This document shows positions 40,253 through 59,053 of a stretch of 64,000 nucleotides of DNA, in pieces. Numbering within the stretch: position 1 is the stretch's first letter; every line of letters begins with the position of its first letter. Position numbers and translations under genes: made by a program. Source of the DNA: Sutcliffiella horikoshii DSM 8719 (GTDB taxonomy: Bacteria; Bacillota; Bacilli; Bacillales; Bacillaceae_I); contig LQXN01000067.1 in the NCBI GenBank assembly GCA_001648575.1, positions 248,001 through 312,000 on the forward strand. Direction: 5' to 3'. Under the pieces are notes generated by a model. That model made no database searches. It was given only the letters and a program-made list of their open reading frames with translations, and was not told where the DNA came from.

Positions 40253-41272
40253 TCATGGTAAAACTCGCACCCCACTTTCAATCTGGGGTGCGTTTTGCTG
40301 TTTCCAAAGACTTTTCAGACAGTATTTTGCGTTGACAGTGGAACCCGTCTTTTCAAGAAATAAAGACTTCATAATTTGCCTTGCAATATGCATACTTGGA
40401 ATATGTAAAAACCTGCACACCTCTTTGGTCGTAATAGATGAACTAATCAAAAGTGAATAATCCATTAACGTTTGGATATGAGCCTCCATTGAGACATGGT
40501 TACAATGGACGCACCTCCACCTTCTAGGCAACCTTTCCATAGCTAACTCATTGCATTTGGGACAAGTGACACCTGTTATTAATTCCATAGGATTGATATC
40601 AAATTCTTTTAGGATATTTTCATTTCTTGGTACGTGATGTTCACAAATTAGAGAGAAAATTTCATGAGCAGAATGACTGCTGGTGTGAGATGGCTGGGTA
40701 TTTGCTATAAGATGCTCCAATTTAAATGTTAAAGCGGGATTCCTTACAACATACTCCTGTACTATTGCAGGATTGGAGAGCGCTTTCACTATTGCGTTTT
40801 GATTGGTGATGACAACAAAGCAAAAACCGGAATAACCATCTACTTGATGGTGTGAAAGCCAACGTTTGAATTGATTATATTGCATTTTCACTTGCAATAT
40901 GGGATCTTGCCTGGAAATCTCATCGTCTTTCTTAATTTGAATTAGCTGCTGAAAATCGGGATCAAAAAAAAGTGTACCTGTTAAGTGCTTTGTTTCAAGG
41001 AGAATGAAAAATGAAGGATAAAGAAGAAGCGTATCCATTTGGAAGTGATACTGATTGAGTTGTAGCCTTGCACCTCTTATTATTGGGTATGGTATTCCTC
41101 CGTTAATCTGTGATAAATAATAATCGATAGAGGCTTCCCCATAATCACCAGAACGCTTCTTACCCAAATCAACCTCTACTTGAGCATACTTTTCATGCAT
41201 GGGGGAAAGCCTTGTATGTAAAGCATGCAACTTATACTGCAATAATGATCGATATTGATTTCGTTTTTCCAA
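40253..41272 (-). CDS. NERD-domain protein with zinc ribbon
   Basis: Nuclease-related (NERD) domain protein, 339 residues from TTG 41272, which has GGAGG ten bases upstream; an earlier TTG at 41305 lacks a site. The NERD core (about 42-150) keeps the possible catalytic residues Asp80 (FQMD) and Glu93-x-Lys95 (LLETKHLTG). A four-cysteine ribbon C237, C240, C254, C257 follows, then a helical tail. Proteins of this build are common in Bacillus; substrate and role are unknown. Its last codons include the terminator of the convergent lipoprotein gene. Confidence 0.85.
   Translation of the reverse strand: MEKRNQYRSLLQYKLHALHTRLSPMHEKYAQVEVDLGKKRSGDYGEASIDYYLSQINGGIPYPIIRGARLQLNQYHFQMDTLLLYPSFFILLETKHLTGTLFFDPDFQQLIQIKKDDEISRQDPILQVKMQYNQFKRWLSHHQVDGYSGFCFVVITNQNAIVKALSNPAIVQEYVVRNPALTFKLEHLIANTQPSHTSSHSAHEIFSLICEHHVPRNENILKEFDINPMELITGVTCPKCNELAMERLPRRWRCVHCNHVSMEAHIQTLMDYSLLISSSITTKEVCRFLHIPSMHIARQIMKSLFLEKTGSTVNAKYCLKSLWKQQNAPQIESGVRVLP
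40260..40296 (+). terminator. Terminator of the SurA-like lipoprotein gene
   Basis: Stem CGCACCCCA / TGGGGTGCG (nine pairs), flanked by AAAA and TTTT, 12 bases after the stop. It lies inside the 3' end of the convergent NERD gene. Confidence 0.88.
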
Positions 41273-41423
41273 TCTATCACGCCCTCCTTTTTTTTCCTTA
41301 TGCAAGTTTCGACATTTATCTTTATAATACCTTTTAAATTTATAAAATAGGATTTTGGTAATCTGATGTGGTGAAAAAGATAGATAATTGTTGTGATGCA
41401 GGATGGTGGTGGGTGGTGGTTCT

Positions 41424-42058
41424 TAGTTTCAACTTACAGCTTCTTGCTTTAGGCGGGGCGCTTCTTTATTTCCCGGAATCACTTCTCAATTTCCCGATCT
41501 TACTTCTAACTTTCAACGTCGATGTTCTACACTTTCGCCGTACAGTTACCTTTTTAAAAGTTTGGTAACTAGGAAGTCAATACCTCTCCTCCCTCCACTC
41601 GAAATAGGCCAACGAGGGTACCTCTCGACTAGCTGCTCCCCCTTAATAGGGATCACCTCACCCACCTACCCATCAATCCCCATTCTAGCTTTCATCCTCC
41701 ATCTTCTACGCTTTAGCCGCCCGCTTCTTTATTTCCCGAATCCACTTCTCAATTTCCCGAGCTCCCTTCTAACTTTCAGCGCAAATGTTCTACACTTTCG
41801 CCATACAGCTCCCTTTTTAAAAGTTTGGTAACTGGGAAGTCAACACCCTTCCTCCCTCCACTCACATTAAGCGAACGAGGATACCTCACTCCTTGCTACT
41901 CCCCCTTAATAGGATCTCACCCATCTCCCCATCTTTTAGCTTTCATCCTCCATCTTCTAAGCTCTAACCGCCCGCTTCTTTATTTCCCGAATCCACTTCT
42001 CAATTTCCCGAACCCTCTTCTATCGCTAAGGGCAAATCTTCTACACTTTCACCATCCC
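41424..42058. repeat. 21-nt repeat array in three higher-order copies
   Basis: The 858-base gap between the NERD gene and pyrE contains no supported gene. On the minus strand it is built of consecutive 21-base units that begin AGAAG and carry GAAA near the end (for example AGAAGTGGATTCGGGAAATA plus A). Clusters lie at 41424-41550, 41687-41812 and 41938-42058, five or six units each, with the same unit order. The clusters repeat with periods of 263 and 251 bases, and the spacers between them are also alike (CTTTTTAAAAGTTTGGTAACT; CTCCCCCTTAATAGG). Plus-strand frames across it read heptads such as LLYFPNP-LLNFPSS without ribosome binding sites. Function unknown. Confidence 0.85.
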
Positions 42059-42081
42059 TCCAACAAACTAACCAAGCAAAC

Positions 42082-42117
42082 AAAAAATCCCCCCAGACCA
42101 CCCGGCCCAGGGGGAAA
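42082..42117 (-). terminator. Terminator of the pyr operon
   Basis: GC-rich minus-strand hairpin (TCCCCC-TGGGCC against GGTCT-GGGGGGA) followed by TTTTTT, 13 bases after the pyrE stop. Confidence 0.9.
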
Positions 42118-42130
42118 ACATTACAGAAAC

Positions 42131-42771
42131 TTAATACTCCATCCAAGTCTCGCTTGTTGGATTTTCCACCCATTTTGAAAGTTTCTTGCGATCCCCTTCC
42201 AAAATGTAGTCCTTCTCAATTGCCACATCCATCAGTGTTTGATAATCACATAGTGCATGTGCTTCTATTTCATAATTCTTCAAGTTGTCATTGGCCACTT
42301 CGAGCCCGTATGTAAAAATGGCTACTACACCAAGTACTTCACAGCCGGCTTCTCTCAGTGCCTGCACTGCTGCGATGGCGCTGCCGCCTGTAGAGATCAG
42401 ATCTTCCACCACAACTACCTTTTGTCCTGCTTCTACTCTACCTTCGATCTGGTTGCCTTTTCCGTGAGCTTTAGCTTTGCTTCGTACATAGCACATGGGC
42501 AGGTTCAATTCATTGCTGACAAGTGCAGCGTGAGGTATTCCGGCTGTTGCAGTACCAGCTACCACCTGCACTTCAGGAAACTTTGAAACAATCAATCGAG
42601 ACAAGGATTCTGAGATATTCTTCCTGACACGAGGGTAAGAAATGGTTAAGCGGTTGTCACAATAAATGGGTGATTTGATTCCGGATGACCATGTAAAAGG
42701 GTCATTCGGTTGAAAGAATACTGCTTTGATATCCAATAGGTCTTCCGCCACTGTTCTGTTCATCAATTCGT

Positions 42772-42775
<4 letters not shown>
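42131..42775 (-). CDS. pyrE: Orotate phosphoribosyltransferase
   Basis: Joins orotate to PRPP, making OMP. 214 residues with the PRPP loop [14 protein letters not shown] and the orotate-binding lysine-rich [11 protein letters not shown]. The ATG at 42775 overlaps the pyrF stop as ATGA, with GGAG just before. It is the last gene of the pyr operon. Confidence 0.97.
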
Positions 42776-45170
<2,395 letters not shown>

Positions 45171-53281: not shown

Positions 53282-54034
<753 letters not shown>

Positions 54035-55500: not shown

Positions 55501-55616
55501 GCTCTATGGCGACTGAACTTCTGCTTTTCTGGATTCTGGTCGTTACACACGCGCTCTATGGCGACTGAACTTCTGCTTTTTTTGGTTCTGGTTGTTCCAT
55601 ACGCGCTCTATGGCAG
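55501..55616. repeat. 52-bp tandem repeat between ileS and lspA
   Basis: GCTCTATGGC recurs at 55501, 55553 and 55605, exactly 52 bases apart: two full units (GCTCTATGGCGACTGAACTT, then CTGCTTTT and a variable part ending ACGC) and the start of a third. The 328-base gap 55414-55741 otherwise holds only the ileS terminator. B. subtilis has ylyA at this place; I see no remnant of it. Confidence 0.85.
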
Positions 55617-58737: not shown

Positions 58738-59053
58738 AAAAAAATCCCCTCATCCCAAAAAAGGGACGAGAGGATCTCCCGTGGTACCACCCTAAATTGA
58801 CCAGACTGCTTGATGCAGTAACCGGCCCACTTTAGCATTCGTAACGTGAATGTGACGACTGAACTTACAAGCTATCAAGCCTTCAGTCCGGTGCTCTAGG
58901 GTGATATTCATTCCTCTTCTTATACCGGGCTTCCACCGTCCCCGACTCGCTTCAAAAAGTTATAAGAGAAACTACTGTCCCTATCAACGCTTTCTATTCT
59001 TTATAATGTAAATAAGTTCATTTAAACCATCATATGAAAAAACTTTGATTTGT
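58738..59053 (-). promoter_or_regulatory. T-box riboswitch (Ile) of ileS
   Basis: The conserved T-box AGGGTGGTACCACGGGAG is the complement of 58776-58793. The terminator AGATCCTCTCGTCCC / GGGATGAGGGGAT with seven T lies at 58738-58776. In the specifier region GAATATCACCC gives the isoleucine codon ATC (complement of 58903-58905). Uncharged tRNA-Ile would stabilise the antiterminator and allow ileS expression. Confidence 0.93.

Follow-up and report, generated by a model that had tools for sequence, protein, structure and literature searches.

RAYT genes are flanked by cognate REP/BIME repeats; these are strain-specific and scattered through intergenic DNA, frequently at 3' ends. Plasmid iterons and centromere repeats (RepA/RepB, ParR) are direct repeats about two helical turns apart. 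The locus described here lies in the window, a 64,000-nucleotide stretch of DNA from Sutcliffiella horikoshii DSM 8719. As in the REP/BIME systems, a gene is flanked by its own dispersed repeats; however, the units are direct 21-bp repeats rather than palindromes, the consensus has no fold, and the protein, considering the adjacent gene only, is a PF08378 NERD-domain protein with a zinc ribbon rather than a Y1 tyrosine transposase. In manner, RAYT-REP is the closest system, the protein and the form of the repeat being unrelated. The array shares two-turn direct repeats with iterons, but is chromosomal and present at many sites. An origin from a plasmid or phage was rejected, since neither 72,556 plasmid records nor 50,697 phage records contained a match to the window array.

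Constant-length 20-21 nt tandem repeats were described in Bacillus by Subirana and Messeguer (2021; PMC8161180) as non-coding, several per genome, and of species-specific sequence around a short conserved core. They propose a protein requiring a constant repeat size, or small RNAs; the main text names no protein and has no occurrence of 'NERD'. The window element, with six 21-nt units, falls within the length class (20-21 nt, at least four units) and shares with the class, as described there, its non-coding place and a species-specific sequence around a core conserved within species. Beyond that description are a fixed six-unit order, conserved gene-end sites and cores, and the pairing with NERD genes. 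The repeat class was already catalogued, and the NERD pairing is the addition made here.

STAR elements of staphylococci (PMC3532100) resemble the window array, by description only, as interspersed intergenic direct repeats. SmdA of Staphylococcus aureus is a cell-division membrane protein whose NERD domain is missing several of the conserved residues; its authors knew in 2022 of no prior study of the role of the NERD domain in bacteria, and the passages of that paper on SmdA do not mention repeats (PMC9040797). A literature search, with most subscription journals outside its range, found no published link between NERD and repeats. We consider it probable that the NERD-domain protein encoded directly downstream uses the array as a multi-site DNA platform.

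The window array and the adjacent NERD-domain gene

The array sits between pyrE and the NERD-domain gene, the three following one another on one strand. Coordinates are those of the window, and R1 is a sequence-only search model.

40253..41305, minus strand: NERD-domain protein, candidate cognate of the array (Pfam PF08378, 1.9e-11, 44.9 bits, cut-off 22.1)
41410..41535, minus strand: element copy 3, NERD-gene-proximal, six 21-nt units (R1 match C5:289417-289534)
41536..41672, no strand: spacer between copies 2 and 3, within the tandem block (TRF period 263; sequence)
41673..41798, minus strand: element copy 2, the top-scoring copy, six 21-nt units (R1 76.7 bits, E 5.1e-21)
41799..41923, no strand: spacer between copies 1 and 2 (TRF period 263; sequence)
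41924..42049, minus strand: element copy 1, pyrE-proximal, six 21-nt units (same-genome R1 match C5:289931-290048)
42077..42117, ends approximate, minus strand: probable intrinsic terminator of the pyr operon in the gap between pyrE and the array (by eye, a G+C hairpin followed by a T-run)
42131..42796, minus strand: pyrE (orotate phosphoribosyltransferase), upstream neighbour of the array and the gene used to locate the orthologous site in 16 genomes; we take it to be pyrE from its sequence and its position in the pyr cluster

A minus-strand array of 21-nt repeats in three copies had been proposed in a preliminary description at 41424-42058, and it is real at nearly those positions. TRF reports a period of 263 with 2.3 copies and 84% match at 41459-42055, as well as two 21-nt rows. 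The paired-unit pattern GAAAN3AGAAGN9GAAAN3AGAAG, with one mismatch allowed, matches the window six times, always inside the array; the mean over 100 dinucleotide-preserving shuffles of the window is 0.00. A 126-nt element occurs three times in the array, and each occurrence consists of six 21-nt units with a short GTAGAAG-like core that here often reads GAGAAG. The copies had been described as about 255 bp long with five to six units; their number stands, while their starts are 263 and 251 nt apart and the units are always six. The reported position just after the pyr operon terminator also held, as did the observation that the units differ from one another and recur in the same order, an order kept between the copies and in other genomes. 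Plus-strand open reading frames of 66-117 aa cross the array in frames that shift from copy to copy, and the array is non-coding in the sense used for the Bacillus 20-21 nt repeats. A CRISPR-like array was rejected, as the units have unit-specific sequences and are dispersed over many sites.

The NERD-domain gene had no part in the earlier reading of the locus. Its product scores above the PF08378 gathering threshold and carries the conserved GE, D and ExK residues, in a GE...QxD...ExK motif that is read as the PD-(D/E)XK type; residues G53, G56, E57, Q89, D91, E104 and K106 are invariant in an alignment of 26 rows, in which the query occurs twice. The protein is predicted to be nuclease-like. 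It also carries a C4 zinc ribbon and, at its C terminus, a stretch resembling a helix-turn-helix, which was read by eye because the predicted structure was unreliable (mean pLDDT of 35.6). The best hit in a search of solved structures had an E value of 0.15, and no viral relatives were found. The true start is likely the TTG at 41272, which stands behind AAGGAGG. NERD homologues form a multi-copy family present in 113 of 150 genomes; being so widespread, their presence does not predict this motif, and it was rejected as a simple predictor of GTAGAAG-type repeats.

A six-unit element with conserved phase, cores and chromosomal sites

The array is not confined to one assembly. Scanning named genomes with the two-unit word recovered 39 stretches. 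Of these, 32 come from strains of S. horikoshii (including one filed under Bacillus horikoshii) and from Bacillus sp. RO1, RO2 and CHD6a, and six from Jeotgalibacillus sp. S-D1; the remaining one, Altiarchaeota L072, was dropped as an unrelated low-complexity purine run. With R1, for which only the best matches were listed and weak copies are missed, the E 0.001 threshold yields 14-23 listed matches per genome in 11 of the 16 genomes of the genus (taken as Sutcliffiella) and none in the remaining five. Jeotgalibacillus S-D1 (G123) has 26 matches at E 0.01 and its two congeners have zero; among the 150 relatives it is the only genome outside the genus with more than two pattern matches. A weak R1 match in G005 (E 0.004) lies inside a called coding region and was dropped. 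The exact two-unit pattern is absent from IMG/VR, where a looser GTAGAAG pattern occurs in 86 viral stretches. At 78 of 100 pattern places, in 80 of these stretches, the frame is open over 350 bases, and the other 22 places were rejected by eye as unlike this element.

The pyrE site is occupied in all 11 array genomes, with one to at least four tandem copies depending on the species. Grouping by neighbouring genes gives 18 site families, of which ten are common to 7-11 genomes and eight are confined to 1-4; family 0, built on a single shared flank, is probably a mixture of sites. Neighbours include rlmD, ndk, spoIIP, spoVID, hemL, parC, valS, folC and recX. The earlier idea of an old 21-nt amplification later duplicated as a block was supported for the duplication, seen in the tandem copies at pyrE, with the qualification that the block itself is a dispersed element.

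Open reading frames at element sites were called roughly, with home-made scorers. In the first batch of 85 loci, the element (E) and its neighbours are arranged as >E> in 28, <E< in 24, >E< in 20 and <E> in 2, the other 11 being only partly called. The elements lie in both orientations and nearly always at gene ends, mainly 3'. None is covered by a long called gene; three loci have a called ORF of 52-61 aa inside, and two elements slightly overlap a called gene. Site families 10 and 13 appear divergent, on gene calls that are uncertain. Of the 21 Jeotgalibacillus arrays, 4 are in divergent positions, so the avoidance of such places is not absolute.

The consensus was derived from 35 ungapped Sutcliffiella elements, with variable bases between the unit motifs. 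It is specific to each unit: AAATTGTAGAACATT in unit 1, AAAGGTAGAAG in units 2 and 5, GGGAAATGTAGAAG in units 3 and 4, and AAAGGTAGAA in unit 6. Counting a core as present at five or more of its six letters, occupancy over units 1-6 is 83, 94, 98, 97, 83 and 76% in 127 elements from nine genomes (G000 and G002 excluded), and at the places just before and just after the six units it is 11% and 9%. Among Jeotgalibacillus arrays with at least four units, 17 of 21 have six units and four have five; in most of these arrays the GGG pair is formed by the first two units instead of the two central ones, and in some it is missing. Uniqueness to one strain assembly, or loss of phase and unit order in relatives, had been named as what would count against the array; it occurs in many genomes, and phase and order are both kept.

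Across 61 orthologous pairs at single-copy sites, identity is 91.6% in the cores, 76.9% in the spacers and 77.7% in the 100-bp flanks. Cores have also changed in parallel. GTAG occurs in units 3 and 4 in 199 of 248 cases in nine relatives, 4 of 20 in G002 and 0 of 22 in the window genome. Among the 11 scored elements of the window genome, unit 3 reads TTGAGAA in seven (five sites, with three of the copies at pyrE) and unit 4 reads AAAG in six (four sites). The spacers differ between elements that share these changes, which points to a trans-acting factor rather than to copying of tracts. A neutral slippage repeat that was later duplicated could account for the varying number of tandem copies at pyrE, but is extremely improbable given the conservation of orthologous cores, the fixed order and number of units and the parallel change of cores at several sites.

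At the recX site the array begins about 20 nt past a stop codon, and the opposite strand of the array is C/T-rich and unstructured. Rho sites are C/T-rich and unstructured as well, and a function at the RNA level would take the form of a C-rich Rho-loading stretch on that strand, or of a small RNA. We regard this as very doubtful: the element consensus folds with only -0.36 kcal/mol and zero compensatory changes, no Rfam family matches the array, and elements occur in both orientations relative to genes. A structured RNA family was rejected on the lack of both fold and family. We know of no need for an exact 21-nt phase in Rho loading.

Polar chromosome sites of the KOPS/SRS type orient towards the terminus. 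No such polarity was found in G001, and a polar replication signal was rejected: 7 of 12 listed sites in that genome point with the leading strand, in a hand count that excludes the parC site and takes the terminus to be at parC. SpoIIIE- and Spo0A-like words were also considered among the rejected readings. As separate observations, the dif word matches in five array genomes (G000, G003, G007, G008 and G015), and in each of them this dif-like site is 1.1-1.7 kb away from the element downstream of parC (for example G015:C1:2324635-2325861). The sites listed for G013, a listing that lacks weak matches and is uncorrected for gene density, all fall at 0.99-3.12 Mb; as the 4.28-Mb contig begins within dnaA, this places them in the terminus half. 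Several pyrE-site elements (L109, L111, L113 and L115) are immediately preceded by a short hairpin, ATTACCTA...TAGGTAGCT, which was seen by eye and is repeated along with them.

NERD genes are paired with arrays of their own motif

In Jeotgalibacillus S-D1, six arrays are clustered within 6.4 kb that also contain a gene for a 331-aa NERD protein, directly downstream of two of the arrays on the same strand and with 25% identity to the window protein across 314 positions. Since the NERD relatives form a multi-copy family, other NERD loci were examined for arrays. Eighty loci were picked by rank of similarity to the window protein among the matches listed, and an array was called at a self-similarity of at least 50/84 at lag 20-22, 40-43 or 60-64. 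By this measure, 60 of the 80 loci have an array of 20-21-bp period within 800 bp, a count that omits nine further loci from the horikoshii pyrE site. Arrays occur on 67 of 160 flanks at NERD loci compared with 5 of 337 control flanks, which were mostly from the genus and had known elements removed; one of the five (L119) adjoins a NERD gene. At any lag, 18 of the 337 control flanks reach the score, mainly at lag 52.

The pairing extends beyond the genus, with arrays at 25 of 26 NERD loci inside it and 35 of 54 outside, the latter in 15 of 20 families. The 20 loci with no array at the threshold include 19 from outside the genus. By 600-bp segment, arrays occur directly upstream of the NERD gene in 49 of 80 loci and directly downstream in 16, in the segments farther out in 5 and 2, and within the gene in none. 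The array words vary with the locus (AAAAGTTCGATAGA, TCACAAT, GTGAGAAC, TTGGACAGTAA, AATCAGTCG, CGCATA and others), and so does the number of units, which ranges from 3 to 45 by a rough count with 4 to 6 commonest; six units are therefore not universal near NERD genes. Some arrays are greatly expanded, that of L406 reaching up to 45 units by the same rough count.

Three words were followed across genomes, and all three tests matched the prediction that each would be dispersed. The first came from the array adjoining a NERD gene in G004, a member of the genus that has no window-type element. Searched in six genomes, it gave 31 matches in G004, 1 in G123 and 0 in the other four, with 0 for the controls. 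The G004 matches fall into six arrays with six or seven units each (in two, the seventh unit is weak), and all six arrays lie 47-129 nt behind a codirectional ORF. The word of the second NERD gene in the window genome gave 51 matches there, 25, 19 and 8 in G002, G012 and G015, and 0 in G003, G004, G009 and G123, as in the controls. The sampled NERD loci of G002, G012 and G015 include the clade of this second gene and those of G003, G004, G009 and G123 do not, a statement about a non-exhaustive sample. The third word, from a NERD locus of G124 in another family, gave 91 matches in G124, many of them in expanded arrays; G073 had a single match and four other genomes had none. Its reversed control had no match in G124 and one in each of G066 and G073.

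Such motif-matched, scattered repeats would also be left by dispersal of the RAYT-REP kind, in which the NERD nuclease moves or copies the arrays, non-autonomous elements settle at harmless gene ends, and the current positions are old insertions, perhaps co-opted later. Several NERD genes are flanked by their own repeats, with arrays of like motif on both sides at L393, L407, L417, L421, L428, L433 (inverted) and L450. The elements of Sutcliffiella and Jeotgalibacillus stand at different sites (six Jeotgalibacillus loci), which, together with the eight of 18 site families confined to 1-4 genomes, indicates that spreading has occurred. Yet the ten widely shared site families have conserved cores, no terminal inverted repeats were seen by eye in the consensus, and the change of copy number at pyrE is tandem. 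We regard dispersal as unlikely to be the main explanation of the arrays.

The motif classes follow the tree of the NERD proteins. On a tree of 34 proteins of the genus, from which one short row was omitted and in which five unlabelled rows counted as their own group, motif labels require 10 changes, with a minimum possible of 9 and a shuffled mean of 24.5. As array and NERD gene are physically linked, this agreement possibly reflects common descent in part. Two side observations concern individual clades. G015 and G012 (L369 and L372) are sisters on the pyr tree (100/100), yet the NERD protein and array at the pyrE site belong to different groups in the two genomes, a hint that the NERD-array pair was replaced as a unit. 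Clades B (L403-L405 and L415) and E (L409, L410, L413, L418 and L426) are neighbours that are split by species and use unlike words, TTGTGAnGGGATT and TTGnCCGAAG, and they possibly represent one gene with a switched code.

A different protein, of the nucleoid, topology or replication kind, might bind the arrays, with NERD genes carrying them as regulatory sites or tolerating them. Binding by the NERD protein is itself inferred, G011 has arrays including one at its pyrE site with no NERD gene following, and one array adjoins the dif-like site in the genomes noted above. This explanation appears improbable, as every NERD clade goes with a motif of its own and two of the tested motifs coexist in the window genome, so that a single host protein would be insufficient. 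In addition, the GAGAAG variant tracks the NERD tree, where G000 and G002 are sisters (96/89), and not the pyr tree, where the branch that separates them has values of 87/95. Decay of the arrays is worst in G011, at a mean of -2.92 core matches; G006, with a truncated NERD gene, stands at -1.32, no worse than G013 with a full-length gene (-1.27). These values are no more than suggestive of array decay following loss of the NERD gene.

Candidate role of the arrays and minor features of the window

The preliminary description had offered a non-coding RNA, a protein-binding array or a recombination relic. A protein-binding array fits best, given the conservation of cores, a spacing of about 21 nt or two helical turns, and a strand independent of the neighbouring genes. 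A non-coding RNA is disfavoured by the missing fold and Rfam family and by the occurrence of both orientations, and a relic by the constraint and the conservation of sites.

With the array read as a platform for the NERD protein, each element would offer six short cores spaced two helical turns apart, which could allow protein units to align on one face of the helix. We infer the binding itself, as well as same-face assembly and autoregulation, the last of which would act through the arrays ahead of the NERD gene. The dozen or more elements elsewhere, most of them at gene 3' ends, would anchor the protein at set positions on the chromosome. What it might do there is a guess: it may serve to insulate the ends of transcription units or to organise them, or a nuclease-like enzyme may be stationed there, and any cleavage is equally conjectural.

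We lean towards a broader view in which the NERD proteins of Bacillales are a large, unrecognised set of two-part systems, each paralogue reading its own 20-21-bp word. The word would be written in phase beside the gene and across the chromosome, with several codes per cell. If so, constant-length bacterial tandem repeats, catalogued in many bacteria without explanation, would gain cognate proteins, and binding by the NERD protein would amount to a sequence-coded system for marking the chromosome in ordinary environmental bacteria. The NERD domain is common in bacteria, and joining it to the repeats makes both questions directly testable, with a named protein, a site and a predicted code. Natural experiments are provided by paralogues with different motifs in one genome and by a genome without the gene at the site.

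Elsewhere in the window, a PyrR site (53864-53995) and a T-box leader (58759-58996) score above the Rfam thresholds, and both are ordinary. A 52-bp repeat with 2.2 copies at 55501-55614 fits the 52-nt class of Subirana and Messeguer. Arrays of period 52 also top the control flanks at L310, L303, L287, L261, L292 and L281, all within the genus.
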